This document shows, in pieces, positions 9,495 to 40,406 of a stretch of DNA of 45,553 nt. Both the position numbers and the translations under genes were made by a program. The DNA is from a virus. The notes beneath the pieces are model-generated. The model was not told the origin of the DNA. It saw only the letters and a list, made by a program, of their open reading frames with translations, and ran no database searches. The stretch spans positions 1-45,553 of the IMG/VR virus record IMGVR_UViG_3300024346_009801; one strand, written 5' to 3'. Position 1 is the stretch's first letter; every line of letters starts with the position of its first letter.

Positions 9495-9495
9495 C

Positions 9496-17768: not shown

Positions 17769-19385
<1,617 letters not shown>

Positions 19386-25292: not shown

Positions 25293-25293
25293 A

Positions 25294-26586
25294 ATGAAAC
25301 CGTTATTTATTATAAGTTCCCCTTTTGACACCTATTCAGGTTATGGAGCTCGTTCTCGAGATGTTATTAAATCTATTATCCAATCAAATAAATATAATGT
25401 ACGTTTATTATATCAAAGATGGGGTAATACACCTTTAGGATTTTGTAATGATAATCCTGAATGGAAGTATTTATATGATCTAGTTTTACCTAATAATCAA
25501 TTACCTAAACAACCCGAGATTTGGGCTCAAGTAACTATCCCTAATGAATTTCAATCAATAGGAAAATACAATATTGGATTCACAGCTGGAATTGAAACTA
25601 CATTATGTGCTGGGGATTGGATTGAAGGAATGAATAGAATGGATCTTAATATTGTTTCATCAGAGCATTCTAAAAAAGTATTCCAAGACTCTAAATTTGA
25701 AAGACGTAATAAAGAAACTAATGCTTTAGAAGAAAACATTAAACTTAAAAAACCTATTGAAGTATTATTTGAAGGAGCTAATACAGACATTTATAAAGTA
25801 CTTGATACTCCCTGTTCTTTAGATTTCAATGTTAAGGAAAAATTTGCTTATTTATTTGTAGGACATTGGATGCCAGGTGATTTAGGTGAAGATAGAAAGA
25901 ATGTAGGTTTATTAATTAAAGCATTTTATGAAACCTTTAAAAATAAATCTAATAAACCTGCTTTAATTTTAAAAACATCTCAAGTAGGTTCATCCTATAT
26001 GGATAGAGAAGACATTCTTAAAAAGATTAAATTAATTAAAAAAACAGTTAATTCAAATAATTTACCTAATGTTTACTTACTTCATGGTGAATTCACAGAT
26101 GAAGAAATGAATGAAATTTATAACCATTCTAAAGTAAAAGCAATGGTTAGTTTAACTAAAGGTGAAGGTTTTGGTCGTCCATTACTTGAATTTACATTAA
26201 CTAAAAAACCCTTACTTACTACAGGATGGTCAGGACAAATGGATTTTTTAAACCCAGAATTTACTTCTTTAATTGGAGGTGAATTAACTAATGTTCATCA
26301 AAGTGCAGCCAACCAATGGTTATTACCTGAATCACAATGGTTAGCTCCGGATCATGGTCAAATAGGACATTTTTTAAAAGATATATTTGAAAATTATAAA
26401 AATTATACTGATAAAGCTAAACGCCAAGCTTTTTACAGCAAAACAAACTTTAGTTGGGATAAAATGAATGAAAAAATTGAGGTATTATTAACTCAATATG
26501 TTCCTGAATTTCCAAAAGAAGTTACATTAAAACTTCCCACTATTAAAAAAATCGAATTACCTAAAAAAGAAACAACAAATGGATAA
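25294..26586 (+). CDS. Glycosyltransferase, GT4-like
   Basis: The 430-residue protein starts PLFIISSPFDTYSGYGARSR and has VLFEGANTDIYK, LFVGHWMPGDLGEDRKN and the signature KGEGFGRPLLEF (289-300), with the two catalytic glutamates spaced as in GT4 enzymes. It begins one nucleotide after the previous glycosyltransferase stop, so the two are surely co-translated and may add successive sugars. The last 30 residues are Lys/Pro-rich. It overlaps the zinc-ribbon gene by 8 nt. Confidence 0.88.
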   Translation: MKPLFIISSPFDTYSGYGARSRDVIKSIIQSNKYNVRLLYQRWGNTPLGFCNDNPEWKYLYDLVLPNNQLPKQPEIWAQVTIPNEFQSIGKYNIGFTAGIETTLCAGDWIEGMNRMDLNIVSSEHSKKVFQDSKFERRNKETNALEENIKLKKPIEVLFEGANTDIYKVLDTPCSLDFNVKEKFAYLFVGHWMPGDLGEDRKNVGLLIKAFYETFKNKSNKPALILKTSQVGSSYMDREDILKKIKLIKKTVNSNNLPNVYLLHGEFTDEEMNEIYNHSKVKAMVSLTKGEGFGRPLLEFTLTKKPLLTTGWSGQMDFLNPEFTSLIGGELTNVHQSAANQWLLPESQWLAPDHGQIGHFLKDIFENYKNYTDKAKRQAFYSKTNFSWDKMNEKIEVLLTQYVPEFPKEVTLKLPTIKKIELPKKETTNG

Positions 26587-27034
26587 TCTAATTAATTGCG
26601 CCCGTTGTGGTTCAGATGCGTGTTACGTAGAAGAAGTAAACCAAGATATTAAAACTTATTTTTGTTATGGATGTGGTTTTCAAACTAATTCATTAATGAA
26701 AGAAGGAGAAACATTCTATGAAGAACAAATCAAAATCCTCCCAGAACTTTACAAAGATTTAACCGATAAGGATGAAGATGGAATTATGTGGATGCCTTCA
26801 ACAGTTAATTTACCCCAACAGGGTATGGTGTTTGCTAATGGTCCCTCTAAAACAGACTGGGGTTGGGCAGCTGTAAAAGCAGTCCCTGTACTTGAAGAAG
26901 AAAAGGAAAAATATCCTATCCTAAATAAAAAAGGAGAATATTATGAGTGGAGAATGGACATGACTACTCTTCAGATGTTTCCTGAGCGTGATTTTATGGA
27001 AGCTCTTTCGTATATTGGAGTATTACCTGAATAA
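26579..27034 (+). CDS. Zinc-ribbon protein, 151 aa
   Basis: The N-terminus has CARC (Cys7, Cys10) and CYGC (Cys29, Cys32), a four-cysteine zinc ribbon, with an extra Cys15. The rest (KDEDGIMWMPSTVNLPQQG, WGWAAVKAVPV, MQMFPERDFMEALSYIG-like end) is typical of a small conserved phage protein of unknown role. It overlaps the glycosyltransferase by 8 nt. It is the one gene in the island without an evident link to sugar chemistry. Confidence 0.75.
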   Translation: MDNLINCARCGSDACYVEEVNQDIKTYFCYGCGFQTNSLMKEGETFYEEQIKILPELYKDLTDKDEDGIMWMPSTVNLPQQGMVFANGPSKTDWGWAAVKAVPVLEEEKEKYPILNKKGEYYEWRMDMTTLQMFPERDFMEALSYIGVLPE

Positions 27035-27044
27035 AAAAAATATT

Positions 27045-27680
27045 ATGAAAATAAGTTATGGATTAACCGTGTGTAATGAACACGAAGAACTAAAAAATTT
27101 AATTGAGTATTTAATTAAAAGAATTAATGGGGAGGATGAAATCGTAGTAGTTTATGATCAAAATAGAGTCACCCCAGAAGTGTTAAAGGTTATAGAAGAT
27201 TATAAAGAAGAAACAAATGCTTATCCTTTTAATTTTCAACAAAATTTTCTTGAAAATAAGAACTTCATGAATAATAAATGTAATGGAGATTATATTTTTC
27301 AAATTGATGCTGATGAAATTCCTGAAAGTTTTCTAGTAGAAAATTTAAAATCTATTTTAGAAGATAATCCTGTAGATTTAATCATCACACCTCGTAAAAA
27401 TTTAGTTGAAGGACTAACTCCTGAATATATTCAAAAATGGGGGTGGGTTGTAAATGAACAAGGTTGGGTTAATTGGCCCGATGCTCAAAAACGAATTTAT
27501 AAAAATACACCTGAAATTCAATGGTCAGGTCATCAAATACATGGTATGGTAGAAGGTTATAAAACATTTGCTACTTTACCCTTTACGGAAGAATGGAGTA
27601 TTATTCATAATAAAACTATTGACCGTCAAAAAAATCAAAATGAACGTTATACAAAAATCGAAATTGGTGAATTAAAATGA
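27045..27680 (+). CDS. Glycosyltransferase family 2-like
   Basis: ATG 27045 gives MKISYGLTVCNEHEELKNL, the normal GT2 opening, and is preferred to an upstream in-frame start inside the zinc-ribbon gene. GDYIFQIDADEIPE contains the metal-binding Asp88-Ala-Asp90. NWPDAQKRIYKNTPEIQW and HGMVEGYKT match GT2 enzymes related to heptosyl- and glucosyltransferases of the WaaE type. The protein has 211 residues, a single catalytic domain without membrane segments. It overlaps the next gene by 4 nt. Confidence 0.85.
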   Translation: MKISYGLTVCNEHEELKNLIEYLIKRINGEDEIVVVYDQNRVTPEVLKVIEDYKEETNAYPFNFQQNFLENKNFMNNKCNGDYIFQIDADEIPESFLVENLKSILEDNPVDLIITPRKNLVEGLTPEYIQKWGWVVNEQGWVNWPDAQKRIYKNTPEIQWSGHQIHGMVEGYKTFATLPFTEEWSIIHNKTIDRQKNQNERYTKIEIGELK

Positions 27681-28078
27681 GAAAGTACCTACCAACCCTT
27701 AGTGAATTAGTAGATAGATTATCTATTGTTCAACTTAAAGAAGTGTTTATTACTGAACACAAAGAAGAATATTCAAAAGAAATTGCTAACATTGTTCATG
27801 ATATTCAAGTATTACTTGATGAACAAAATGGTAAAATTACAGCCGAAACCATCCGTGCTATAGTTGTATTATCTCAAATGAACTTACACATTTGGCACAA
27901 TGAATCCAATTATCGTAAGGGTATTAAAGACGGTAATAACCTGGAATTAACGCATGGTTTGAATGGTATTCGCAACGTAGCAAAAAACCGAATTCAAGAA
28001 GTAGTAGGTGGACGAAAAGATTATAAAATTGATTGTTTAGCTGCTGATTTTAAAGACTGGGAAATATCATGGGAATAA
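27677..28078 (+). CDS. Conserved helical protein, 133 aa
   Basis: Begins MRKYLPTLSELVDRLSIVQL and is all-helical, with QMNLHIWHNESNYRKGI in the second half. I recall similar small proteins beside glycosyltransferases in marine phages but no known activity. Overlaps of 4 nt upstream and 10 nt downstream tie it to its glycosyltransferase neighbours; it could be an adaptor. Confidence 0.72.
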   Translation: MRKYLPTLSELVDRLSIVQLKEVFITEHKEEYSKEIANIVHDIQVLLDEQNGKITAETIRAIVVLSQMNLHIWHNESNYRKGIKDGNNLELTHGLNGIRNVAKNRIQEVVGGRKDYKIDCLAADFKDWEISWE

Positions 28079-28791
28079 TAGAACGTACTCGAAAACACAC
28101 TCACCCATATATTTCAGTAATTTTTCCTAGTAGAAAAAGGGTAGAGTTATTAAATGAAACTTTATATTCTATATTTTCATTAGCTGATTCACAAAACGTA
28201 AATTTTGAAGTTATTATTAAAATAGATTTTGATGATCATGAAACATTAGATTACATTAAAAATTGGTCTAATGAATATGAAAATTTATATTTTATAATAA
28301 GTTCTAGAAAACAAGGATTTTTAAATGTAGTAGATTTTACTGAAGATATGATTGATTTGGCTAAAGGAAAATATATTCTTGTAGCTAATGATGATATGGT
28401 ATTTAAAACTCAAAATTGGAATACTATTTTAGAATCTAAACTTACTGATTTTAAAATTTATTTTCCATATGTAAATGGATATAGAGAATCTTTTTGGTGT
28501 ATTCCAAAAGAATTATATACTACTTTAGGTCATGTATCTCATCATAACCAAATTGATACTTATTTAAATTGGTTAGGACAAATTTTAGGAATTATAGAAC
28601 ATATTGATGAAGTAGAATTATACCATCGTTTTGATTATGAAGATCAAACAGCTTTAGATAAAGTTAGTGTAATTAATACTAATTATGCTAGTAGAGATTA
28701 TCATAGAAATTCTCCTGAATTTAAAGAAGATATAAGAATACTTCAAAATCTTTTAAAAATAGAAACATTAAACCCCATAACAAAAAATTAA
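28069..28791 (+). CDS. Glycosyltransferase, GT-A fold
   Basis: ISVIFPSRKRVELLNETLYS is a GT-A opening, followed by FEVIIKIDFDD and GKYILVANDDMVF, whose Asp108-Asp109 would bind the metal-nucleotide. The C-terminal half (WNTILESKL, IPKELYTTLGHVSHHNQ) is less conserved. The 240-residue protein lacks membrane helices. Its donor is unknown. It overlaps the upstream gene and touches the epimerase gene (TAATG-type overlap). Confidence 0.8.
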   Translation: MGIIERTRKHTHPYISVIFPSRKRVELLNETLYSIFSLADSQNVNFEVIIKIDFDDHETLDYIKNWSNEYENLYFIISSRKQGFLNVVDFTEDMIDLAKGKYILVANDDMVFKTQNWNTILESKLTDFKIYFPYVNGYRESFWCIPKELYTTLGHVSHHNQIDTYLNWLGQILGIIEHIDEVELYHRFDYEDQTALDKVSVINTNYASRDYHRNSPEFKEDIRILQNLLKIETLNPITKN

Positions 28792-29267
28792 TGATATTTC
28801 CTGAGGTAAAAATATTTAAACCTGATGCTTTTGAAGATTATAGAGGTGAACTTTATACTTTATTTAAACAAGAAGAGCATGATTTAGTTTTTAATCATGA
28901 TAAAGTTTCAATTTCAAGACAAAATGTTTTAAGAGGAATGCATGGGGATTCTAAATCTTGGAAACTTATAACATGCCTTTCAGGTGAAATTTATTTAGTA
29001 GTTGTAGATAATAGACCTAATTCCCCAAATTATTTAAAATGGGATTGGATTGTGATTACATCTAAAAATAGAGCATCTATTTTAGTTCCACCTAATTTTG
29101 CAAATGGTCATTATATCTTAAGCCCAGAAGCAACACTTTTTTATAAATGGTCCTATCTAGGTGAATATCCTGATGTTCAGGATCAATTTACTTTAAAATG
29201 GAATGATCCTAAAATAGGAATTGATTGGCCTACTTTTAATCCTATTTTATCTAAACGTGATTCCTAA
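28791..29267 (+). CDS. RmlC-like dTDP-sugar 3,5-epimerase family (cupin)
   Basis: The 158-residue protein shows the RmlC pattern: DAFEDYRGELYTLF, then VLRGMH with catalytic-type His51, Lys58, VVDNRPNSP, VPPNFANGH (99-107), Tyr118 and NDPKIGIDWP. RmlC epimerises C3 and C5 of 4-keto-6-deoxy sugars. Here the 4-keto-6-deoxy donor made nearby is GDP-linked (GMD at 37778), so the substrate may be GDP- rather than dTDP-linked, or a 3- or 5-only epimerisation may occur. No rmlA or rmlB gene is seen in the window. Confidence 0.85.
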   Translation: MIFPEVKIFKPDAFEDYRGELYTLFKQEEHDLVFNHDKVSISRQNVLRGMHGDSKSWKLITCLSGEIYLVVVDNRPNSPNYLKWDWIVITSKNRASILVPPNFANGHYILSPEATLFYKWSYLGEYPDVQDQFTLKWNDPKIGIDWPTFNPILSKRDS

Positions 29268-29279
29268 AGAAAAAATTAT

Positions 29280-29288
29280 TATATTAAC
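29280..29288 (+). promoter_or_regulatory. Possible -7 element inside the glycan island
   Basis: TATATTAAC at 29280-29288 lies in the 38-nt gap before the gene at 29306, the largest gap between 23850 and 40406. The expected TTTGG 19 nt upstream is absent (CGTGA), so this is weak. Confidence 0.25.
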
Positions 29289-29305
29289 ATCAAAAATAAA
29301 ATAAA

Positions 29306-29866
29306 ATGAAAAAAGCACTTATTATTACTTGGGAACGATTCCAAGATCACGAATTAATTTATCCTTACTATTCATTAAAAGAAAATGAATTCGAAGTAAC
29401 CTTGATGGCAAATAAAGTTGGTAGAATTTATGGTGATATGGGATGTCATATGCCTTGTGATGTTACTACAAACATTTTTGAAGATGAAAATATTCGTAAA
29501 CAATATTTAAACAAATATGATGTTGTATTAATTCCTGGAGGTGTTAAATCACTTGAAAAATTAAGACAAGAACAAGGTGTTCTTAAATTTATCCAAGAAT
29601 GGAATGCTGCTAATAAAACAATTTTCTCCATATGTAATGGAGCCCAATTACTAATTTCAGCTAAAATATTACAAGGAAGAACAATCTCAGGTTATTATTC
29701 TATTGATACTGATATTAAAAATGCAGGAGCAACTTATAGTAGAGGCCCAGTAGTAGTAGATGGTAATATTATTTCAACTCCTCACTATGATTTTATGGGT
29801 GAATGGATGAGAACATGCATCGAAGTATATGAACAAAGAAGTTATAATCCTGAAACTATTATTTAA
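29306..29866 (+). CDS. DJ-1/PfpI-family protein
   Basis: The 186-residue protein has the class I amidotransferase-like fold: ALIITWERFQDHELIYPYY with Glu16, DVVLIPGGV (72-80), and the nucleophile elbow SICNGAQLL with Cys110. Members usually have CHG at the elbow; here it is CNG, which removes the catalytic-dyad His. VDGNIISTPHYDF near the end is typical. Known members include glyoxalase III, deglycase-like and chaperone activities, and some act in sugar pathways. Within a sugar island a role in removing reactive aldehydes is possible but unproven. Confidence 0.82.
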   Translation: MKKALIITWERFQDHELIYPYYSLKENEFEVTLMANKVGRIYGDMGCHMPCDVTTNIFEDENIRKQYLNKYDVVLIPGGVKSLEKLRQEQGVLKFIQEWNAANKTIFSICNGAQLLISAKILQGRTISGYYSIDTDIKNAGATYSRGPVVVDGNIISTPHYDFMGEWMRTCIEVYEQRSYNPETII

Positions 29867-30525
29867 TGAGTTACGAAACAACTATAGTAAAAAAACCTTG
29901 GGGTTATGAATATCTTGCTTATGAAAATGAACATGTAGCTCTATGGTTTCTTTATATTAAACATACTCATTCTACATCATTACATTGTCATCCTAAAAAA
30001 ACAACAGGTTTAATTTTATTAGATGGTCAAGCTGAAGTATCATTTTTCAATCATACTAACAAATTAAACCCAGGTAGTAAAGTAATGATTAGAAAAGGTT
30101 TGTTTCATTCCACTAAAGCTACAGATGAAAAAGGTGCTTTTGTATTTGAAATTGAAACCCCTGTTGACAAACAAGATTTAGTTCGTTTTAGAGATAGCTA
30201 TGGTCGTGAGGGCAAACCTTATGAAGATAGTACTCATGAAATACCTAAAGTTGAAGATTGTTTATGGATTACAAATGAAGTTAAAGATTATAATTTTGCT
30301 AATTGTATTTTATCTATAAAAAATATTACTGATGTTTCTATGTTTAATGAAATCGAAAATCAGTATAATGTAATGTTTTTAAAAGGTGGTTTACAAGCAG
30401 ATTATGGACAAAATGTAGCAGGTCCTGGTGATGTTGTAGTAGCTAGTACTATTAAACAACTTACAGAAGTATTCACTAAAGTAGATCCTCAAACACTTAT
30501 AATGATTATTAAACCAAATGAATAA
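29866..30525 (+). CDS. Cupin, mannose-6-phosphate isomerase type II-like
   Basis: KPWGYEYLAYEN at the start and LHCHPKKTTGLILLDG (His40, His42) match the sugar-phosphate isomerase cupin motif KPWG ... HxHPKK. A second cupin-like half (MFLKGGLQADYGQNVAGPGD) follows, so the protein may be bicupin. It could supply mannose phosphate for GDP-mannose, the substrate of GMD at 37778, but some catalytic residues cannot be checked by eye. A binding or epimerase role is the alternative. The stop overlaps the next gene by 8 nt. Confidence 0.72.
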   Translation: MSYETTIVKKPWGYEYLAYENEHVALWFLYIKHTHSTSLHCHPKKTTGLILLDGQAEVSFFNHTNKLNPGSKVMIRKGLFHSTKATDEKGAFVFEIETPVDKQDLVRFRDSYGREGKPYEDSTHEIPKVEDCLWITNEVKDYNFANCILSIKNITDVSMFNEIENQYNVMFLKGGLQADYGQNVAGPGDVVVASTIKQLTEVFTKVDPQTLIMIIKPNE

Positions 30526-30901
30526 ACACTTCCCCCCAGGTTTTGATTCTGAATTAAATAATTTAGCAATCGATTTTGATGGTGTAATCCATAATTTTGA
30601 TAAAGGATATTATGATGGAACTTGTTATGGAGATCCACTCCCAGGATCATTAGATGCCCTTCGTAATTTATCAAAAAACTATAAAATTATTATTTTTACA
30701 GCTAAAGCTAAACCCAATCGTCCCTTAGTAAATGGTAAAACAGGAACTCAATTAGTAGAAGAATGGTTACAAAAACATGGTGTTTTTGAATGTGTATCTG
30801 AGATTACATCTGAAAAACCAAGAGCATTCCTTTATATTGATGATAATGGGTATAGACATACTGATTGGGAAGACACTTTACAATTTATAAAAACGTTATG
30901 A
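30518..30901 (+). CDS. HAD-superfamily phosphatase-like protein
   Basis: The 127-residue protein has IDFDGVIH with Asp19 and Asp21 (motif I), IIIFTAKAK (motif II, Thr) and FLYIDDNGYRH (motif IV, Asp-Asp). It is a minimal HAD without a cap domain. In this island it could dephosphorylate a sugar phosphate, as GmhB does in heptose synthesis; a kinase related to the HldE kinase domain lies at 38827. The stop overlaps the E1 alpha start as ATGA. Confidence 0.8.
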   Translation: MNKHFPPGFDSELNNLAIDFDGVIHNFDKGYYDGTCYGDPLPGSLDALRNLSKNYKIIIFTAKAKPNRPLVNGKTGTQLVEEWLQKHGVFECVSEITSEKPRAFLYIDDNGYRHTDWEDTLQFIKTL

Positions 30902-31731
30902 ATAAATTTAAATTAGAAACATTTAAAAAGGCTTCACTTTGTAGACATTTTGAAAACCAAGTTTATAAAGTATCTCAAAACAAACATATTAAATTTCCAT
31001 TTTACCTATCAGCGGGTCAAGAATATATTGCTGCCTCTATTTATACTATTTTAGAGGAAAAAGGAATTGATACTAATGTTTTTATTCAACATAGAGGTCA
31101 TTCACATTACCTTTGTAAAGGAGCAGATCCTATCCAATTAATAGATGAATTACTAGGACGTAAAACAGGATGTGCTGGTGGAATGGGAGGTTCAGCTTCA
31201 ATACATTCACACGAAAAAAACATTTTTGGACACGATGGTTTAATGGGGAGTCAAGTTCCTATTGCTGTTGGACATGCTTATGAAACTCGTAAACCTACTA
31301 TTGTAGTAATGGGAGATGCTTCGGCTGAAGAGGATTATGTTTTAGGAGCATTAGGTTGGGCTTCAACAAAAAACTTACCTATTTTATTTATAGTAGAAGA
31401 TAATAATTTATCCATTTTAACTGAGAAAAAGATGAGACGTAATTGGGAAATGGATAAAATTGCTTTAGGATTTAATATGAAGGCTTCAAATATTAGTGAT
31501 GATCCTTTAGTAATAGAAGCATTTTTAAAAGATTATAATTTTGAATATCCAATGCTTTTAAATATTAACACCCACAGAAAATATTGGCATTCAGGAGCTG
31601 GACAAGATGGAAATGAATTTGATCGTTATGAAAAAGAATTAAAATCATTAGGTGATGAAGGTAAAAAAATTGATGAATATAATAAGTTATTTATAGAAAA
31701 GTTATGGCAACAACAGTTAGAGATACAATAA
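30898..31731 (+). CDS. Thiamine-diphosphate enzyme, E1 alpha-like subunit
   Basis: ATG 30898 overlaps the HAD stop (ATGA) and is preferred to 30865. The 277-residue protein matches the alpha subunit of 2-oxoacid dehydrogenases: HRGHSHYL (65-72), GGMGGSASIH (94-103), GHDGLMGSQVPIAVG, and the thiamine-diphosphate motif GDAS (139-142) ending EDNN (167-170). It is shorter than cellular E1 alpha (about 330-400) and lacks the regulatory phosphorylation loop. The beta subunit follows directly. No E2 or E3 gene is present, so the pair probably makes or transfers an activated aldehyde rather than acyl-CoA. Confidence 0.87.
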   Translation: MNKFKLETFKKASLCRHFENQVYKVSQNKHIKFPFYLSAGQEYIAASIYTILEEKGIDTNVFIQHRGHSHYLCKGADPIQLIDELLGRKTGCAGGMGGSASIHSHEKNIFGHDGLMGSQVPIAVGHAYETRKPTIVVMGDASAEEDYVLGALGWASTKNLPILFIVEDNNLSILTEKKMRRNWEMDKIALGFNMKASNISDDPLVIEAFLKDYNFEYPMLLNINTHRKYWHSGAGQDGNEFDRYEKELKSLGDEGKKIDEYNKLFIEKLWQQQLEIQ

Positions 31732-32615
31732 AAGAAATTACACGCAAACATCTTTCAGAAGGTAAAGGTAAATGTTATGGACAATGCTTAACCGCTGTTG
31801 GTTGGGTAGGAGGAACGTTACCTGAAATGTATGAAGAAGAAGGTATGGTTGAATTTTCAATGTCAGATGTTTCTAATGGTTCAATAGCTACAGGTATTGC
31901 TTTAGCCGGAGGTAGACCTATTTACGTAGTTCGTTATCAAGGATTTCAATGGTATAACTTAGTTTCAATAGTTAATTATGCTGCTAAATCTAAAGAAATA
32001 TGGAATCGTCCTTGTCCTATATTTGTAAGAAGTATAGCAATGGAAGGTGGAGTAGGACCAGTAGCTGGTTCTTCACATCACTCATTAGCCCATAGAATGC
32101 CAGGTATTAAAGTTATTTCCCCTATGACCCCCGGTGAATATGAATATGCTTATGAGTGTTTTATGAGTGATGACGAACCATATTATGTTTCCGAACATAG
32201 AAAATCATATGATAATACTGAAGAATTAGAAAATATTATCCACCCCAATTCAGATTTTACTGTTTTTCCTATTTCAATTACTCGTTTAGAAATGAAGAAA
32301 TTAGTTGAATTAGCAGAAAAAGAAAACATTAAATTAAGTATTATTCACCAATTGTGGATTAAACCTTTTAAAGTTGAAGATAGTTGGAAAATCACTCTTG
32401 ATAATTCAAAATTCGGGGGTTTAGTAACTGATGATGATTATGTAGAAGGTACAGCAAGTAGTATAGCTAATGAATTAAGCTTGGCTACTGGAAAAAGAGT
32501 ATGGACATTAGGTCTAGAATCAAGAACAGCAGGTTTTCATCCTACTGTAGATAATTTACCCCCAAGTGCAGAACAAATTATAAAAAAATTAAAACAAATT
32601 AAATATGGGATATAG
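31704..32615 (+). CDS. Thiamine-diphosphate enzyme, E1 beta-like subunit
   Basis: The 303-residue protein has the transketolase-type pyrimidine-binding domain: FSMSDVSNGSIATGIALAGG, then RYQGFQWYNLVSIVNYAAKS, EGGVGPVAGSSHHSLAHRMPG and KVISPMTPGEYEYA, all typical of E1 beta or split transketolase C-halves. The C-terminal domain (GLVTDDDYVEGTASSIANEL) is the regulatory-type domain. It overlaps E1 alpha by 28 nt, and its own end overlaps the sugar 3-dehydrase start by 11 nt, linking the three products. Expected to form an alpha2-beta2 enzyme. Confidence 0.87.
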   Translation: MATTVRDTIKEITRKHLSEGKGKCYGQCLTAVGWVGGTLPEMYEEEGMVEFSMSDVSNGSIATGIALAGGRPIYVVRYQGFQWYNLVSIVNYAAKSKEIWNRPCPIFVRSIAMEGGVGPVAGSSHHSLAHRMPGIKVISPMTPGEYEYAYECFMSDDEPYYVSEHRKSYDNTEELENIIHPNSDFTVFPISITRLEMKKLVELAEKENIKLSIIHQLWIKPFKVEDSWKITLDNSKFGGLVTDDDYVEGTASSIANELSLATGKRVWTLGLESRTAGFHPTVDNLPPSAEQIIKKLKQIKYGI

Positions 32616-33768
32616 TTGGCCTCTTATTAACGATAATATCACTCAAGGTGATAGAAAAATTTTAGCAGACTTTTGTTTAAATGGTGAACGTTTTACAAAT
32701 GGTCCTAAGGTAAAAGAATTTGAAAAAATTTGGTCTGAATGGTTAGGAGTTAAACACTCAGTAATGGTTAACTCAGGAGCATCAGCTAATTTTATTTCCA
32801 TAGCAATGGTTAAAGAATTAGTTGGTATTGGTGAAGTTATTGTTCCTCCAATTGGTTGGGTTTCTGATATATCTTCAGTTGTTCAATTAGGTATGACTCC
32901 TGTGTTTGTAGATATTTCAATGAATGATTTTAATATTACTTTTGAAAATATTAAAAATGCAGTTACACCAAATACAAAAGCTATTGTGTTAGTTCATACA
33001 TTAGGTTTTAATGGTATTAGTGATGAGCTTATTCAATTTGCTAAGGAACGTAATATAATTTTAATTGAAGATTGTTGTGAAGCTCATGGTGCTACTTATA
33101 AAGATAAAAAAGTAGGTTCATTTGGTGATATTTCATTATTTTCATTTTATTTTGGACACCATATTACTACTATTGAAGGTGGTACTGTTTGTGTAAATGA
33201 TGATAAATTATATGATTTGGCTAAGTTATTCCGTTCACATGGTATGACTAGAGAGGCATCACAAGAATTACAACGTGATTATCAATTAATGTGTCCTGAT
33301 TTAAATCCATTGTTTACATTCGCTGTAGCTGGGTTTAATATGCGAAGTAGCGAATTGAATGCAGTCCTCGGCATTGAACAAATGAAACGCATTAATAACA
33401 ATATAGAACGTAGAACTGAAAATTTACACATTTGGTTAAATAATCTTGATCCTAATAAATTTATTACAGGCTTTAAAACACAAGGAAGTAGTAATTTTGC
33501 TTTGCCTTTAGTAATGCAAGGTTTTAATCGTGATAAACTTAAAGATGTTTGTAATATTTTAGAAAATGAAGGTGTTGAGTATCGTTTAGGTACAGCAGGT
33601 GGAGGCAATCAAGCTCGTCAACCATATTTAAATAAATTTGACCACAGAATAAGTGGAGTATTAGCTCAAGCTAATTATATTCATGATAATGCTCTTTATA
33701 TTGGTAATCATACTGATTTAAATAAAGAACAAATTATTAATCTTTGTAAAAAATTAAATAATGTTTAA
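32605..33768 (+). CDS. ColD/RfbH-like sugar 3-dehydrase (DegT fold, His for Lys)
   Basis: The 387-residue protein has the DegT/DnrJ/EryC1 aminotransferase fold: NGPKVKEFEK, VNSGASAN (55-62), EVIVPPIGW, IEDCCEAHGA (154-163) and GSFGDISLFSF. At the PLP-lysine position, where family members read SF-x-x-x-K, this one reads SFYFGHHITTIEGG: His185 replaces Lys. That substitution marks the PMP-dependent 3-dehydrases ColD and RfbH (E1), which remove the C3 hydroxyl from 4-keto-6-deoxy sugars. With GMD at 37778, the natural substrate would be GDP-4-keto-6-deoxymannose, as for ColD. The product is a 4-keto-3,6-dideoxy sugar. Confidence 0.85.
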   Translation: MGYSWPLINDNITQGDRKILADFCLNGERFTNGPKVKEFEKIWSEWLGVKHSVMVNSGASANFISIAMVKELVGIGEVIVPPIGWVSDISSVVQLGMTPVFVDISMNDFNITFENIKNAVTPNTKAIVLVHTLGFNGISDELIQFAKERNIILIEDCCEAHGATYKDKKVGSFGDISLFSFYFGHHITTIEGGTVCVNDDKLYDLAKLFRSHGMTREASQELQRDYQLMCPDLNPLFTFAVAGFNMRSSELNAVLGIEQMKRINNNIERRTENLHIWLNNLDPNKFITGFKTQGSSNFALPLVMQGFNRDKLKDVCNILENEGVEYRLGTAGGGNQARQPYLNKFDHRISGVLAQANYIHDNALYIGNHTDLNKEQIINLCKKLNNV

Positions 33769-34723
33769 TAATCAAAAAGTTTTAGTAACAGGCGGAGCAG
33801 GAATGATTGGCCGTCAATTAGTAGATTTACTTCTAGAAAAAGGAGCCAAAGTAACAATAGCTGATCTAAATGAACCTACTGATCTACCTCAGGGAGTGGA
33901 TTTTATTAAAACAAATCTATTATATTTTGACCAATGTCAAAACATCTGTCAAGGTCAAGATTATGTTTTTAATTTAGTAGGTATTAAATGCTCACCCAAA
34001 GTAACAATGGAACAACCAGCTGATATTATGGGACCAATGATGCAATTTAATACTAATATGTTAGAGGCAGCTATGAAAGCTAATGTTAAATGGTATTTGT
34101 ATACAAGCACTGTTGGTGTTTATACTCCTGCTGAAGTATTTTATGAGGATGATGTTTGGAAAGGTTCTCCATCACCAAATGATTGGTATGGTGGTTGGGC
34201 TAAGCGAATGGGGGAATTACAATGTGAAGCTTATGAAAAACAAAATGGTGAAGGTAGATGTTCAATTGTAAGACCAGCTAATGTTTATGGTCCTTATGAT
34301 AATTTTGATTTAAAAAATGCTATGGTTGTTCCTTCGCTCATCAGAAAAGCAAACGAAAATGATATAATTGATGTTTGGGGTGACGGTTCACCGATTAGAG
34401 ATTTCATTCATGCTAAAGATGTGGCTCGTGGGATGATGTTTGTAGTTGAAAACAAAATTACTAAACCTGTTAATTTAGGTTCAGGTACAGGAGTAACAAT
34501 TAAAGAATTATCTGAAATTGTTGCTAATTATTTTAATAAATCTATTCAATACTCCCCAGAAAAACCATCTGGAGATGCTAAACGTATTTTTAGTATGGAA
34601 AGAGCTAATTCGTATGGTTTTTATCCTGAAGTTTCTATTAAAGAAGGTATAGAAAGTACAATTGAGTGGTTTTTAAATAATCCTGATAAAATAGATAAAA
34701 AATTTAACGCATTAAATAAATAA
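33761..34723 (+). CDS. NAD-dependent sugar epimerase/reductase (extended SDR)
   Basis: The 320-residue protein has the dinucleotide loop TGGAGMIG (10-17), TSTVGVY, VRPANVYGPYDNFD and IRDFIHAKDVARG, typical of nucleotide-sugar epimerases and of GDP-fucose synthase-like reductases. The active-site Lys148 is in WYGGWAKRMGE; the Tyr (143) lies five residues before the Lys instead of four, so the strict YxxxK is not met. It could be the ColC-like epimerase/reductase step after the 3-dehydrase, or another 4-keto reductase. It overlaps the 3-dehydrase gene by 8 nt. Confidence 0.82.
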   Translation: MFNNQKVLVTGGAGMIGRQLVDLLLEKGAKVTIADLNEPTDLPQGVDFIKTNLLYFDQCQNICQGQDYVFNLVGIKCSPKVTMEQPADIMGPMMQFNTNMLEAAMKANVKWYLYTSTVGVYTPAEVFYEDDVWKGSPSPNDWYGGWAKRMGELQCEAYEKQNGEGRCSIVRPANVYGPYDNFDLKNAMVVPSLIRKANENDIIDVWGDGSPIRDFIHAKDVARGMMFVVENKITKPVNLGSGTGVTIKELSEIVANYFNKSIQYSPEKPSGDAKRIFSMERANSYGFYPEVSIKEGIESTIEWFLNNPDKIDKKFNALNK

Positions 34724-35298
34724 TGAATAAAGTTCTTATTACTGGAGCAAACTCAGGCTTAGGGAGACATTTAGTATCTAAATTCAAAAATAATGGATAC
34801 GAAGTGTTTGAACATAATGGTAGTAAACATTATAATTTAACAAACCAGGATGAAGTAAAAAGATTAGCGGATGCTGCTAAAGATTTTGGTGTAAATATTT
34901 TAATAAATAATGCCGCTATAATTTGTCCTGGTAAGGAATTGTTATTATATTCACATGATGAAATTTCGAATATGGTAGAGGTAAATTTAACAGCTCCTAT
35001 ATTATTAACTTTTTACTTACTAAATCAATTAACAGATATTATTAATATTAACTCAATGGTTGGACTTGAAATTAAATCACCTCGAACACTATATTCAGCT
35101 ACAAAATGGGGGTTAAGAGGTTTTGCTCAAAGTTTAAAAGAAGAAAATAAAAATATAAATATTTTAGATGTTTATCCTACAAATATTCAAACAACCCCAG
35201 ATAAACAAAATGCTATGAATATTAATTTTGTAATAGATAGTATTTATGAGTCATTTACAAACAAAGAACAAACACTTATATTAGATGGAAGAAAATAA
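34723..35298 (+). CDS. Short-chain dehydrogenase (classical SDR)
   Basis: The 191-residue protein has the classical SDR motifs: TGANSGLG (7-14), NNAA (62-65), catalytic Ser111, and YSATK with Tyr124 and Lys128, plus a short C-terminus (IQTTPDK). It is smaller than most SDRs (about 250), lacking part of the substrate loop. A 4-keto-sugar reductase role is plausible by context. It overlaps the epimerase stop by one nt and the next gene by 14 nt. Confidence 0.88.
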   Translation: MNKVLITGANSGLGRHLVSKFKNNGYEVFEHNGSKHYNLTNQDEVKRLADAAKDFGVNILINNAAIICPGKELLLYSHDEISNMVEVNLTAPILLTFYLLNQLTDIININSMVGLEIKSPRTLYSATKWGLRGFAQSLKEENKNINILDVYPTNIQTTPDKQNAMNINFVIDSIYESFTNKEQTLILDGRK

Positions 35299-37033
35299 AA
35301 CAATATTAATTTGTGGAGCTACAGGGTTTATTGGTAGAAACTTATTAGATTATTACTACAAACAAAATAAATATAAAATCAAAGCAACTCATTTTAAACG
35401 TCCCGCTGTTAAAGGTTATGATGGTGTAGAATGGATAAATTGTGACTTACGTGATTCTAAACAAGTTCAAGAAGCCGTAAATGGGGTAGATATAATTTTA
35501 CAATTTGCTGCTACAACAACCGGAGCTAAAGATATAGTTTCTAAACCATATATTCATGTTACTGATAATGCTGTAATTAATTCTTTATTGTTACGAGAAG
35601 CTTTTGAACAGGGTACAGAACATTTTATATTCCCAAGCTGTACAATTATGTACCAAAAATCCGAAACAGCAATCAAAGAATCTGATTTTAATCCATCAGA
35701 AGAAATTCAATCATTCTATTATGGGGCAGGATATACTAAAATTTATTTAGAAAAAATGTGTGAATTTTATTCTCGATTGGGTAAAACAAAACATACCGTT
35801 GTTCGTCATTCAAATATGTATGGTCCTTATGATAAGTATGATTTAGAAAAATCTCACGTATTTGGAGCTACTATTACTAAAGTAATGACTTCTGAAGATG
35901 GAAAAGTAAATGTTTGGGGAACCGGAGAAGAAAAACGTGATTTGTTATACGTAGAAGATTTAGTTGACTTTATTGATGTGGCTATTAATAAACAAACTAC
36001 ACCTTATGAATTAGTTAATGTTGGTTTAGGTGAAGGAATTAAAATCAAAGATCTTGTATATAAAATAGTTAAACATTCTGAACGTGATTTAGAAATCATT
36101 CATGATTTAACAAAACCCACAGTACCTACTTCTTTATATTTAGATTGTTCATATGCTAAAAAATTATTTGGTTGGGAACCAAAATACACTTTAGATGAAG
36201 GTATTAAAAAAACTATAAAATGGTATAAAGAAAATAAAATACCAACAACAGCTGTTATTATTCAATCTAGAAATAGAGTTGATATGTTAAATACAACAAT
36301 CCAAATGTTATATGATACTTGTGATGATGAAAATGATTTTGATATTATAGTAGTAGTTGATGATGATCAAAAAGAATTATATGCCCATCTTAAAGACATT
36401 TTTCCCAAAACTATTTGGTTATACCCCGAACATACTCCAAATAACTGGGGAAATTTAAGAAAAATTCAAAATGATTTTATAAAAAATACCAATTACTATT
36501 TCAATTGGTGTATTAGTGATGATATTTTAGGTGTTTATAAAGGATGGGATAGTGCTATAAAAGAAAAAAAACATTATTTTAAAGATGATTTATTTACTAT
36601 GTATCAATCAAATGATTATAGAGGTGGTTTTGGAATATATAACAATATGTTTTGTAATGAAGATTATAAAAATACTTCTAATGAGGATATATCAAACAAT
36701 GTTTATCATTATTGTGAATGTTTACCTATTAGTACTAAAAAATGGGTTGAATTTATGGCTCCTATTTATGAAAATGAAGAATATTCTACTCAACACGAAT
36801 TATTAACAGGACTTATAGTTGGAATTTTAAAGAAAAAATATAATATTGAAAGGTTAATAAAATGTGGTTTAGGTTTTAATACGGTAATTAATGAGGGTGC
36901 AAGTAATGATATTGTTGATACTAATGATGGATTAACAAGAAACGCAGCATATTTTAAATTAGCCGAAGATAACTTTAGTAAACTTTTACCAATTGCAGAA
37001 AAAATTTATAATGAAATTAAAAAAATAAAATAA
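35285..37033 (+). CDS. Fusion: NAD-dependent epimerase plus GT-A glycosyltransferase
   Basis: Residues 1 to about 310 form an extended SDR: CGATGFIG (10-17), FIFPSCTIMY, RHSNMYGPYDKYD, GTGEEKRDLLYVEDL and FGWEPKYTLDEGI. At the active-site Lys the sequence is YYGAGYTK, so the residue four before Lys is Ala, not Tyr. From about 315 a second domain begins with TTAVIIQSRNRVDML, then FDIIVVVDDDQ and FNWCISDDILG, which resembles a GT-A glycosyltransferase. Both domains look complete. A fused enzyme could make a sugar donor and transfer it. Other genes here encode these functions separately. Confidence 0.8.
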   Translation: MEENKTILICGATGFIGRNLLDYYYKQNKYKIKATHFKRPAVKGYDGVEWINCDLRDSKQVQEAVNGVDIILQFAATTTGAKDIVSKPYIHVTDNAVINSLLLREAFEQGTEHFIFPSCTIMYQKSETAIKESDFNPSEEIQSFYYGAGYTKIYLEKMCEFYSRLGKTKHTVVRHSNMYGPYDKYDLEKSHVFGATITKVMTSEDGKVNVWGTGEEKRDLLYVEDLVDFIDVAINKQTTPYELVNVGLGEGIKIKDLVYKIVKHSERDLEIIHDLTKPTVPTSLYLDCSYAKKLFGWEPKYTLDEGIKKTIKWYKENKIPTTAVIIQSRNRVDMLNTTIQMLYDTCDDENDFDIIVVVDDDQKELYAHLKDIFPKTIWLYPEHTPNNWGNLRKIQNDFIKNTNYYFNWCISDDILGVYKGWDSAIKEKKHYFKDDLFTMYQSNDYRGGFGIYNNMFCNEDYKNTSNEDISNNVYHYCECLPISTKKWVEFMAPIYENEEYSTQHELLTGLIVGILKKKYNIERLIKCGLGFNTVINEGASNDIVDTNDGLTRNAAYFKLAEDNFSKLLPIAEKIYNEIKKIK

Positions 37034-37034
37034 T

Positions 37035-37778
37035 ATGGAACAACAAGGTTATCAATTAACACAAGAACAAATTGATTTTTTCCATGAAAATGGATACTTA
37101 CACTTAAAAAAAGTATTTTCAGAAGATCAATGTCAACTGCTTATAGAAGAAGCAGACCAACATGCTGACAATCATTATACTAATTATTTAGATCTTCATC
37201 ACAAACCAGAATTTAAAGAAGTACATACAGGTAAAACTATGTGTGATATTGGAGATGCTTTACTTCCTAATAGAGTTGTTCCTATTGGTAGTATTTTTTT
37301 CTTTTGTAAACCAAACAATCCATTAGAATTAGGTTCTACTTGGCATCAAGATAATTATGCTGGTAAAGCAATAGATGGCGGACATTATTTAAATTTAGCC
37401 TTAGCATTAGATAATGCTGAACCTGAAAATGGTTCTTTAATGATTATACCTAAAAGTCATAAATATGGTACTTTACCTTGTAACCCAAAACCAAATTTTT
37501 CATATGATGAAAATGGTAAAATGTATCAATCATCCCCTATAGGAAATGATTGTGATATTCCTGAGGGGTTAGAAATCGTTCATTTAACATATGAACGTGG
37601 AGATGTTTTAGCAGTTCATGGAGATTTAGCACATAAAGCAGATAAAAATAATCATCCAACAAGATGGAGAAAAACAATGTATTTTGTTTATATAAATGAT
37701 GGTTCAGCGTTTTGGCCTGGTTGGACAGCTCGCAGAGAACTTTTAGAAAGATATGATTCACCTAAACTTATTAAATAA
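37035..37778 (+). CDS. Phytanoyl-CoA dioxygenase (PhyH)-family oxygenase
   Basis: Fe(II)/2-oxoglutarate-dependent oxygenase of 247 residues. FFHENGYLHLKKVFSEDQ is the typical PhyH opening, TWHQDN supplies the iron ligands His104 and Asp106, and VHGDLAHKADKN (194-205) with His200 the third ligand; Arg210 would bind 2-oxoglutarate. PhyH members hydroxylate small molecules, including antibiotic and sugar intermediates. In this island it may hydroxylate a sugar or its branch; that is inference from position. It sits 1 nt after the fusion gene and overlaps gmd by one nt. Confidence 0.87.
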   Translation: MEQQGYQLTQEQIDFFHENGYLHLKKVFSEDQCQLLIEEADQHADNHYTNYLDLHHKPEFKEVHTGKTMCDIGDALLPNRVVPIGSIFFFCKPNNPLELGSTWHQDNYAGKAIDGGHYLNLALALDNAEPENGSLMIIPKSHKYGTLPCNPKPNFSYDENGKMYQSSPIGNDCDIPEGLEIVHLTYERGDVLAVHGDLAHKADKNNHPTRWRKTMYFVYINDGSAFWPGWTARRELLERYDSPKLIK

Positions 37779-38830
37779 TGGGACTTTCAGATTGCGTACC
37801 AGATTACGATTATAAAACACCAAAAAGAGTATTAATTACAGGCATAACTGGAATGGTTGGTTCACATTTAGCTGATTTCCTATTAGAAAACACAGATTGG
37901 AAAATTTATGGTTTTGCTAGATGGAATGATTCATTAGAAAATATTGAACATCTTTCAGAACAAATTAATACTAAAGAACGTATTGAATTAGTTTATGGTG
38001 ATTTAAATGATTTGGTTTCATTGATTACAGCAGTAGATAAATCAAAACCTAATTATGTATTTCATTTAGCAGCCCAATCTTATCCACAAACTAGTTTTGA
38101 TGCGCCTATAGAAACGCTCCAAACAAATATATTGGGGACGGCTAATCTATTAGAGGCATTGCGTAAATCACCATATAAACACGCTATAACGCATGTATGT
38201 GCATCGAGTGAGGTATTTGGTCGAGTACCTAAAGAAAAATTACCAATTGATGAGGAATGTAATTTCCATCCTGCTTCTCCTTATGCCATTTCAAAAGTAG
38301 GTACTGATTTAGTAGGTAGATACTATGCTGAGGCCTATGGGATGAATATTATGACTACTCGTATGTTTACTCATACAGGACCAAGACGTGGAGATGTATT
38401 TTCAGAATCAACATTTGCTAAACAAATAGCAATGATTGAATCTGGTTTACAGGAACCTAAAATTTATGTTGGTAATTTAAATTCATTAAGAACATATGCT
38501 GATGTAAGAGATGCTGTTAAAGCCTATTATATGTTAGTAACAATTAATCCACAAGGTGGAGAATATTATAATATAGGAGGTACATTTACTTGTAAAATTG
38601 GAGACATGTTAAATTATTTAATTGAACGTTCAACTGTACCAAATATTGAAATTATAACTGACCCTGATCGTTTAAGGCCAATTGATGCTGATTTACAAGT
38701 ACCTAATTGTGACAAATTTAAACAACATACAGGATGGCAACCCGAAATCCCATTTGGTAAAACAATGGATGATTTATTAGAATATTGGAGAAATAAAGTA
38801 AAATCAGGACGTAAATTTTTAAGACGATGA
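37778..38830 (+). CDS. gmd: GDP-mannose 4,6-dehydratase
   Basis: The enzyme converts GDP-mannose to GDP-4-keto-6-deoxymannose. The 350-residue protein has TGITGMVG (21-28), HLAAQSYPQTSFD (96-108), the active-site CASSEVFG (141-148) and YAISK with Tyr169 and Lys173, then TRMFTHTGPRRGDVFSES, which is typical of GMD. RLRPIDADLQVPN near the end matches RPAEV(D)-type GMD endings. It would feed the ColD-like 3-dehydrase at 32605. It is longer than some bacterial GMDs only by its N-terminal extension. Confidence 0.9.
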   Translation: MGLSDCVPDYDYKTPKRVLITGITGMVGSHLADFLLENTDWKIYGFARWNDSLENIEHLSEQINTKERIELVYGDLNDLVSLITAVDKSKPNYVFHLAAQSYPQTSFDAPIETLQTNILGTANLLEALRKSPYKHAITHVCASSEVFGRVPKEKLPIDEECNFHPASPYAISKVGTDLVGRYYAEAYGMNIMTTRMFTHTGPRRGDVFSESTFAKQIAMIESGLQEPKIYVGNLNSLRTYADVRDAVKAYYMLVTINPQGGEYYNIGGTFTCKIGDMLNYLIERSTVPNIEIITDPDRLRPIDADLQVPNCDKFKQHTGWQPEIPFGKTMDDLLEYWRNKVKSGRKFLRR

Positions 38831-39564
38831 AATTTTTAGTTATAGGAGATAGTTGTATTGATGTTTTCCGTTATGGAAAAGTAAACAGGTTAGCCCCCGA
38901 AGCACCAGTCCCAATCATTATCCCTGAAAAAGAAACAACCAACCCAGGTATGGCGGGTAATGTTGTAAAGAACATTGAAGCATTAGGACACCAAGTAGAT
39001 TTTATTACAAATACTACAGATATTAAAAAAATTAGATATATTTGTTCTAAATACAATCATTTACTTTTACGAGTAGATGAAAATGACTATTGTCAACCAA
39101 TAACACAAAAAGTATTAGATAAAATTAAATGGGAAAAATATGATGCTGTTATTATAAGTGATTATTGTAAAGGTTTTTTAGATGAAAATGATATTAAATT
39201 TATTATAGCAAAACACTCATTAACATTTTTAGATAGTAAAAAACTATTAGGTGAATGGGCTCATAATATTAGTTATATTAAGATTAATTACCATGAATAT
39301 GAAAAAAATATGGATATTTTATCTAAAGATAATGTATTAATGAATAAAACTATTATAACTAAAGGTCATTTAGGTTGCCAATTCCATAATAAAATATACC
39401 CAACCCAAGAAGTACCAGTAAAAGATATTTCAGGTGCTGGAGATACATTTTTATCAGGATTAGTAGTAGAATATACTAGATCTAAAAACATGGAATTAGC
39501 AATTAATTTTGCCCAAGAATGTACAACAATAGTAGTTCAAAAAACAGGAGTATCAACAATATGA
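38827..39564 (+). CDS. PfkB-family sugar kinase, HldE/RfaE kinase-domain-like
   Basis: The 245-residue protein has the HldE-type opening GDSCIDVFRYGKVNRLAPEAPVP, MAGNVVKNIEALG, and the PfkB catalytic motif ISGAGDTFLSG near the C-terminus, with the Asp base. It corresponds to the kinase half of HldE (heptose 7-phosphate 1-kinase) but is shorter than that domain (about 310 residues), with a reduced middle region. No adenylyltransferase domain follows. A heptose or other sugar phosphate is the probable substrate. The stop overlaps the next gene as ATGA. Confidence 0.83.
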   Translation: MKFLVIGDSCIDVFRYGKVNRLAPEAPVPIIIPEKETTNPGMAGNVVKNIEALGHQVDFITNTTDIKKIRYICSKYNHLLLRVDENDYCQPITQKVLDKIKWEKYDAVIISDYCKGFLDENDIKFIIAKHSLTFLDSKKLLGEWAHNISYIKINYHEYEKNMDILSKDNVLMNKTIITKGHLGCQFHNKIYPTQEVPVKDISGAGDTFLSGLVVEYTRSKNMELAINFAQECTTIVVQKTGVSTI

Positions 39565-40406
39565 AAACAGCAGTTGTATTATTTTGTAGAAATGATGAAT
39601 ATAAAGAAGATGAACGTGTAATTGTTTGTCTTAATTCAATGGTAGAAACATTCGATGAAGTTTGGTATATTGATTGGAATTCTCCTGAAGATAAAGGTTC
39701 ATTACTTTGGAAAATTGAAGATAAACTTATTAAAAAAGGTAAAATTAAACATATAATAATACCTCCATCAGTAGCTAAACAAATTAACCCCAACGGAAGT
39801 GTAGTTAATGGGTTAATCCCACCTAATCTAGTATTTAAAAGAACAGATGCTGATTGGATTGTAGCTACAACTATGGATATTATTGCTCCTAATAAAAAAA
39901 CATTTGATAAATTTTTAAAAACAGCAGATCCTAATACTTTTTATACTGTAGAACGAAGAGATATTGAATATAAAGATGTAGAAGAATTTGGTTTTGATAA
40001 TTGGAGAGAATATAGAGACCATTTAGATGCTACTACAGAACCAAGAAGATGGGGAACTAAAGTAACACCTAATGATAAATATAGTTTAATAAATTGTTGT
40101 GGTGATTTTCAATTAGCATCAAAACATGTTTGGAACACAGTTAAGGGTTTTGAAGAAAAAATGATCTATGCTTGCTACCCAGATACCAATGTTCAGAAAA
40201 AAGCTGTATTAAATGGGTTTGGACTTGAAGCTGTATTTACTATTCCTTTATATCACATGTCTCATGCTGGTATGGAAAATGATGGAAGTTCTCCATCAAA
40301 GCAAAAATATAATGATCCTTGGGAATGGGTTGAATTTTTTGAAGAATCTCAAAATACCGACGATTGGGGGTTAAATGGAGTTGAAATTGAATATGAAATT
40401 ATTTGA
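39561..40406 (+). CDS. Glycosyltransferase-like protein (GT-A fold)
   Basis: ATG 39561 overlaps the kinase stop and is preferred over 39519. The 281-residue protein begins MKTAVVLFCRNDEYKEDERV and has DEVWYIDWNSPED and RTDADWIVATTMDIIAPNK, fitting a GT-A domain with a degenerate DxD. FQLASKHVWNTVKGFEEKM and YPDTNVQKKAVLNGFGLEAV resemble the galactosyltransferase-like C-terminal region that checks the acceptor. Donor unknown. It is the last gene of the glycan run; the next gene has its own promoter. Confidence 0.78.
   Translation: MKTAVVLFCRNDEYKEDERVIVCLNSMVETFDEVWYIDWNSPEDKGSLLWKIEDKLIKKGKIKHIIIPPSVAKQINPNGSVVNGLIPPNLVFKRTDADWIVATTMDIIAPNKKTFDKFLKTADPNTFYTVERRDIEYKDVEEFGFDNWREYRDHLDATTEPRRWGTKVTPNDKYSLINCCGDFQLASKHVWNTVKGFEEKMIYACYPDTNVQKKAVLNGFGLEAVFTIPLYHMSHAGMENDGSSPSKQKYNDPWEWVEFFEESQNTDDWGLNGVEIEYEII

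Follow-up and report, generated by a model that had tools for sequence, protein, structure and literature searches.

Background

Split thiamine diphosphate (ThDP) enzymes of the E1 2-oxoacid dehydrogenase type (alphaKADH2) add two-carbon branches to keto-sugars in the biosynthesis of aldgamycin, kibdelomycin, avilamycin and paulomycin (PMC12247030, PMC4425429, PMC4802897); the unit that these antibiotic enzymes add to the sugar ketone comes from pyruvate (PMC12247030, PMC4425429, PMC4802897, PMC10338323). Among ThDP enzymes, three superfamilies are known to use ketones as acceptors: theirs, the decarboxylases, with their YerE-like members, and the transketolases (PMC12247030). In Campylobacter, a GDP-3,6-dideoxy-heptose is made by a GDP-heptose 4,6-dehydratase, a C3-dehydratase dependent on pyridoxal phosphate (PLP), a C5-epimerase and a C4-reductase (PMC10440746, PMC10680097); also described is Cj1427, a GDP-heptose C4-dehydrogenase (PMC10680097). 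A review of 2025 calls viruses an unexplored source of such ThDP enzymes (PMC12247030). Here we study a virus record of 45,553 bases, IMG/VR IMGVR_UViG_3300024346_009801 (the window, that is, the whole stretch analysed), in which an E1alpha/E1beta gene pair directly precedes the gene of a ColD-type sugar 3-dehydrase. Comparison of this locus with its relatives leads us to propose, with a probability of about two in three, that it is part of a viral pathway for GDP-heptose, in which the pair would branch a keto-dideoxy sugar at C4.

Results

The E1 pair and its dehydrase

The ThDP enzyme is encoded by two adjacent genes, one for an E1alpha-type subunit (30898..31731, + strand; PF00676, 9.5e-22) and one for an E1beta-type subunit (31704..32615, +; PF02779, 3e-10), both matches being above the cut-off. 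According to their coordinates, the two genes overlap by 28 bases, and the second overlaps the dehydrase gene (32605..33768, +) by 11 bases. Profile alignments of the first subunit to the E1alpha of pyruvate dehydrogenase (PDH), and of the second to PDH E1beta, support the fold. When aligned with human PDH E1alpha, the E1alpha subunit retains a PDH-like ThDP site: the motif region GDA...EDNN and the H-R-x-H are kept. The E1beta subunit departs from PDH at the cofactor-activating glutamate, since its Asp55 aligns with the Glu of 3duf_B. This aspartate is invariant in 15 aligned viral sequences, and a script finds it in all of the roughly 116 sequences, out of 125, whose motif is readable.

Members of the E2 family (PF00198) are absent from 14 viral records, in a search that was positive on control genomes, and a motif scan of the loci found the E2 motif in none of them; the window pair is neither encoded nor found with an E2, as an E1 of a PDH complex would be. 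In 50,697 deposited phage genomes, we found no relatives of the pair beyond 20-27% identity.

The nearest structure to the dehydrase (PF01041, 4.6e-77) is ColD (2gms, 6e-56), ahead of the RfbH-type 3bcx (2.6e-43). Residues His185-His186 are found in FYFGHHITTIEGG, and His185 takes the place of the PLP-binding lysine within a DegT fold, the combination that marks the ColD/RfbH group. An earlier note, made from the letters of this DNA, had recognised a ColD/RfbH-like 3-dehydrase with His185 for Lys, and the profile, the structure match and our own reading of the sequence all agree with it. The same note placed the E1 pair in overlap with the dehydrase gene, which is correct, and between that gene and a supposed GDP-mannose 4,6-dehydratase (GMD), which is not: both E1 genes come before the dehydrase gene, on its upstream side.

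An exchangeable position for ThDP enzymes

Viral contigs were scanned with the dehydrase instead of E1, and the 80 dehydrase loci studied are the best of 559. The count that follows is limited to the 65 loci whose sequence before ColD extends for 4.8 kb or more, which is long enough to judge: in every one of them (65/65), the cassette around the ColD-type dehydrase holds exactly one ThDP enzyme. The form of the cassette is a B12-radical-SAM protein, the ThDP enzyme, HddA, ColD and a C4-dehydrogenase, and then three phage core genes, of which two are gp47- and gp46-like by Pfam, and the first is labelled gp55 by inspection only.

The occupants of the ThDP slot are of four types: a short E1 pair in 29 loci, a split transketolase in 16, the E1 clade of the window in 14, and, in 6, an acetolactate-synthase/YerE-like enzyme, which is a single protein of 611-619 amino acids (locus L206 is an example). 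These family assignments were confirmed. When the closest cassettes of two types are compared, their dehydrases are 92-99% identical for most pairings, the value being 88.6% for YerE-like versus short E1. Two helper genes travel with the window's E1 clade, DJ-1 in 14/14 loci and a cupin in 13/14, and are found with the other three ThDP types in 0/51. The exchange is also seen in clusters of the window's own type: where the dehydrase is 93-95% identical to that of the window (93-94% in L269 and L271), a short E1 pair replaces the whole DJ-1/cupin/HAD/E1 block.

Members of all three ketone-accepting superfamilies thus replace one another in one operon position, and no other observation speaks as strongly for carboligation to a keto-sugar. 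Genome comparison gives strong support to a link of the ThDP enzyme with the dehydrase.

The phage cassettes also reveal a common, minimal form of split E1-type enzyme, with about 200 + 177 residues and without the E1beta C-terminal domain (L203:5881-7007, L052:10918-12060, L031:11981-13122), which is among the smallest ThDP enzymes known to us.

Neighbourhoods of the E1 relatives

Viral and bacterial collections were searched for relatives of E1beta, which gave 43 viral loci after dereplication and 30 bacterial loci, the latter from Pelagibacteraceae, SAR116, betaproteobacteria, Patescibacteria and others. DJ-1 and the cupin are each present in 42/43 viral loci, and the His-type dehydrase in 39/43. 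An enzyme forming the C4 ketone of GDP-heptose is found in 41/43 (C4-dehydrogenase type in 25, 4,6-dehydratase type in 17, both in 1), and a heptose kinase in 38/43, drawn from two unrelated families that never occur together (HldE-kinase type in 26, HddA type in 12). The 30 bacterial loci yield HddA in 29, a ketone-forming enzyme in 27, DJ-1/PfpI in 27 and the His-type dehydrase in 22. Its recurrence across the 43 viral and 30 bacterial loci makes the neighbourhood more than chance, and the association of the pair with a set of genes that form and deoxygenate keto-sugars is the one that characterises the sugar-branching alphaKADH2 enzymes.

In 28 loci, the C4-dehydrogenase and the dehydrase are present and no reductase of the GDP-fucose synthase/EpiB type is detected, so that E1 is the sole candidate of the cassette for consuming the ketone. 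The most compact case is phage locus L104, an operon of eight sugar genes amid T4-like core genes: cupin, B12-radical-SAM, DJ-1, E1alpha, E1beta, HddA, ColD and a short-chain dehydrogenase/reductase (SDR) that matches 6vo6 at 1.3e-105. Among the genes of this operon there is no C4 reductase and no glycosyltransferase. We take 6vo6 to be Cj1427, the Campylobacter enzyme.

The B12-binding radical SAM protein, HpnJ/BchE-like, has many relatives (for instance at L104:7150-8670 and L206:3649-5166); it occurs in 27/43 viral E1 loci, is absent from the window, and could act on the sugar by C-methylation or some other modification.

A second E1 clade, which keeps the normal catalytic glutamate, is found on Azospirillum plasmids, such as p6 of Azospirillum lipoferum 4B, and about 18 of the 289 alphaproteobacterial genomes surveyed carry it. 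Its neighbours are the His dehydrase (17/19), a C4-dehydrogenase-like SDR (15/19) and HddA (14/19), with neither DJ-1 nor cupin. Because a separate E1 clade has the same neighbours, it lends independent support to the idea of branching by a split E1. Both clades are found about 10 kb apart in one polysaccharide cluster of a gammaproteobacterial genome (L036/L129), the Azospirillum-type (Glu) pair followed by a dehydrase, and the Asp-type pair accompanied by DJ-1 and cupin.

Two more observations concern bacteria. Patescibacteria-type and other uncultured genomes (L051, L060, L067, L068, L074, L076-L079) carry the E1/DJ-1/cupin module in surface-sugar clusters, often with HddA; in a survey of the phylum around one Patescibacteria-type genome, the starting genome alone matched. 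In one Pelagibacteraceae genome (L061:10902-14784), genes resembling NeuB, NeuC and HisF come after the E1 pair, a hint that a cluster of nonulosonic-acid type can be supplied by the module.

A heptose as probable substrate

The enzyme encoded at 37778..38830 (+) matches 7us5, a GDP-heptose 4,6-dehydratase, with 369.5 bits over residues 5-348 (1.6e-109), versus 142.3 bits (2e-40) for the GMD 1db3. Its score with the NCBIfam gmd equivalog is 177.6 bits, far under the cut-off of 415. These scores displace GMD with GDP-mannose as the first choice, on which the earlier note relied when it had this enzyme make GDP-4-keto-6-deoxymannose; the substrate is probably GDP-heptose, and not a derivative of GDP-mannose. 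We read it so because the dehydratase is closest to 7us5, then because the next gene (38827..39564, +) encodes a shortened heptose-7-phosphate kinase-like protein of the PfkB/HldE kinase-domain family (TIGR02198, 4.1e-38; 4e84, 5.8e-11), and because heptose genes recur in the loci. Each of the four Campylobacter enzymes has a counterpart in the window, at 28791, 32605, 33761/35285 and 37778; therefore the first half of the pathway would be of a known kind, on heptose.

The other genes of the window

The DNA polymerase of the window is of a distant T4-like/cyanophage type, 35% identical to that of Microcystis phage Mel-JY01. A dense sugar cluster spans 23850-40406, with the order E1alpha, E1beta, ColD, SDRs, PhyH, dehydratase and kinase; the heptose cluster of S-SM2 differs from it. 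Upstream of the E1 pair are an RmlC-like nucleotide-sugar 3,5-epimerase (28791..29267, +; PF00908, 1.3e-38), found in 26/43 viral E1 loci, and the two helpers that accompany the window's E1 clade, a DJ-1/PfpI-family protein (29306..29866, +; PF01965, 5.8e-35) and a two-domain cupin (29866..30525, +; weak Cupin_2). They are followed by a small HAD-like protein (30518..30901, +), present in 15/43 viral loci, which matches phrog_1238, labelled phosphoheptose isomerase. The predicted model of the cupin is good (pLDDT 90.7) and its PDB fold matches are generic, for example oxalate decarboxylase and phosphomannose isomerase; the structure search did not single out a reaction.

Downstream of the dehydrase lie an SDR like GDP-fucose synthase (33761..34723, +; 1bsv, 2.4e-33), a candidate C4 reductase; a short-chain dehydrogenase (34723..35298, +; PF00106, 6.6e-24), which at a guess is a candidate reductase of a branch ketone; a second SDR like GDP-fucose synthase (35285..37033, +; PF01370, 4.1e-39, residues 7-247 only), with a C-terminal extension that is glycosyltransferase-like by inspection and to which Pfam gives no match; and a PhyH-family dioxygenase (37035..37778, +; PF05721, 2.8e-22).

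Elsewhere in the window, a protein of 133 residues (27677-28078), with no Pfam or PHROG match, is highly conserved, often at 80-96%, beside the sugar cluster in 28 of the first fetched loci. QueC (7159-8019), a radical SAM protein that is QueE-like by context (9490-10284) and GTP cyclohydrolase I (12437-13132) point to a possible 7-deazaguanine pathway, which might serve to modify DNA. The virus also encodes a GroEL-type chaperonin (17772-19385; PF00118, 5.4e-69).

Discussion

In the pathway that we propose, the heptose 4,6-dehydratase-like enzyme would yield GDP-6-deoxy-4-keto-heptose, and the ColD-type enzyme, using PLP and glutamate, would strip the 3-OH to give GDP-3,6-dideoxy-4-keto-heptose; these two steps are indicated by close homology, and Campylobacter is known to reach the keto-dideoxy heptose in this way. 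E1alpha/E1beta, working without an E2, would decarboxylate a 2-oxo acid on ThDP, pyruvate being the default guess, and the acyl carbanion would be ligated to the C4 ketone, so that the sugar would bear a branch and a tertiary alcohol at C4. The probable task of DJ-1 and cupin is to produce the donor, or else to process the branch that the window's E1 clade would introduce. The products of the SDR and dioxygenase genes would complete the sugar, and glycosyltransferases would transfer it to the host surface polysaccharide. The ThDP ligation, its donor, site and stereochemistry, the final product and the role of DJ-1 and cupin are parts that we infer. That a split E1-type enzyme branches a dideoxy-keto GDP sugar was already the suggestion of the earlier note; the mutually exclusive ThDP slot and the second E1 clade now give it strong comparative support, and the sugar has become, probably, a heptose.

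Three other explanations were weighed. The one that survives best, and that we consider unlikely, keeps the ThDP enzyme in the same sugar pathway but off the C4 ketone: together with DJ-1 and cupin, it would make an unusual ketose or an acyl block, before or after the nucleotide-sugar steps. The near-constant company of DJ-1 and cupin with the window's E1 clade, and with no other ThDP type, speaks for it, but the alphaproteobacterial clade has neither and yet keeps the dehydrase and the C4-dehydrogenase. In bacteria, the heptose kinase is a more regular partner of E1 (29/30) than the dehydrase is (22/30), which also fits this explanation; however, the slot is filled alike by decarboxylase, transketolase and E1 types, those known to branch keto-sugars. 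The version in which E1 and cupin make heptose-7-phosphate is weakened by GmhA, the normal heptose-7-phosphate isomerase, which stands beside E1 in 11/30 bacterial loci, so that the two need not make the heptose.

It is less probable still that the cluster makes an unbranched GDP-3,6-dideoxy-heptose, as its full set of Campylobacter counterparts would allow (PMC10440746), and that the E1 pair takes part in a different modification of the surface: the E1beta gene overlaps the dehydrase gene, close relatives retain one type of ThDP enzyme or another beside the dehydrase, and many cassettes are without a detected reductase. Finally, we give very little credit to a PDH-like E1 that would feed a host E2 and alter the central metabolism of the host during infection, as the alignment of E1alpha over the human ThDP site could suggest, given that no E2 was found in the 14 viral records or, by motif, in the loci searched, that the pair is always in sugar clusters, that its E1beta clade is far from PDH with Asp for Glu, and that transketolase and YerE-like proteins replace it in the same slot.

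Several observations weigh against the proposed branching of a GDP-heptose at C4. The two GDP-fucose-synthase-like SDRs of the window could reduce the C4 ketone, leading to an unbranched sugar as in Campylobacter. The E1beta clade of the window is very divergent, on a long and fully supported branch of 4.7 in the tree, and has Asp for the usual glutamate; 8/30 bacterial E1 loci are without a His dehydrase within 10 kb; and the roles of DJ-1 and cupin are unexplained. The kinase of the window is of the HldE type (beta-anomer, ADP pathway), so that GDP is a nucleotide we infer with some uncertainty. Moreover, all loci were found by homology, through E1beta or the dehydrase, and the counts are not a random sample.

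A broader conjecture, on which we would place even odds, is that phages of the T4-like kind, and others related to them, are equipped with plug-in cassettes for C4-branched 3-deoxy- or 3,6-dideoxy-GDP-heptoses. The ThDP carboligase would be the exchangeable module, be it an E1 pair with DJ-1 and cupin, a minimal short E1 pair, a split transketolase or a YerE-like enzyme, and the swap of a gene pair would change the carbon branch that an infected cell displays. The same pathway would exist in marine bacteria and in alphaproteobacteria.

If this is true, sugar branching by E1-type enzymes extends beyond antibiotics to viruses and to the polysaccharides of cell surfaces, and a new family of higher-carbon branched heptoses comes with it. 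The recruitment of three unrelated ThDP superfamilies to the same place in an operon would be a natural comparison of ketone-accepting carboligases, and phages would possess a chemically specific means to alter the host surface, conceivably against superinfection.

Comparison with known systems

The earlier note took branching by a split E1, on a GDP sugar, to be undescribed. Sugar branching of this type is known from the antibiotics (PMC12247030, PMC4425429, PMC4802897), and the statement stands only for the GDP-heptose, surface-sugar and viral setting, of which we found no description; within the papers searched, there was likewise none of the cassette or of the ThDP slot exchange. What is new here is that the setting is viral and involves a GDP-heptose, and that the occupant of the ThDP slot can be exchanged.

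With ColD, the GDP-4-keto-6-deoxy-mannose 3-dehydratase of colitose synthesis, the dehydrase of the window shares the fold and the active-site His for Lys; it differs in that its substrate is probably GDP-heptose, and its product probably not reduced to colitose. The Campylobacter jejuni GDP-3,6-dideoxy-heptose pathway has the same 4,6-dehydratase, PLP C3-dehydratase, epimerase and C4-reductase functions (PMC10440746, PMC10680097), but neither a ThDP enzyme nor a branched product has been reported for it. The alphaKADH2 branching enzymes, namely KbDH-alpha/beta of kibdelomycin, the aldgamycin enzyme, AviB1/AviB2, Pau11/Pau12 (the same as Plm8/Plm9) and EvdU5/EvdS3, which we liken to the window pair by description, are also two-subunit E1-type ThDP enzymes in keto-deoxy-sugar clusters with no E2. 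They serve bacterial antibiotic pathways, whereas the window has a phage cluster of surface-polysaccharide type, probably working on GDP-heptose, with DJ-1 and cupin, and with Asp for the catalytic Glu. Lastly, YerE of yersiniose synthesis is a single-chain flavoprotein of the decarboxylase type, acting on a CDP-hexose, but the logic would be the same: a ThDP enzyme ligates its unit to a nucleotide-linked 3,6-dideoxy-4-keto sugar that is made with a PLP 3-dehydrase, and in locus L206 it is a YerE/acetolactate-synthase-like protein that occupies the very same slot.

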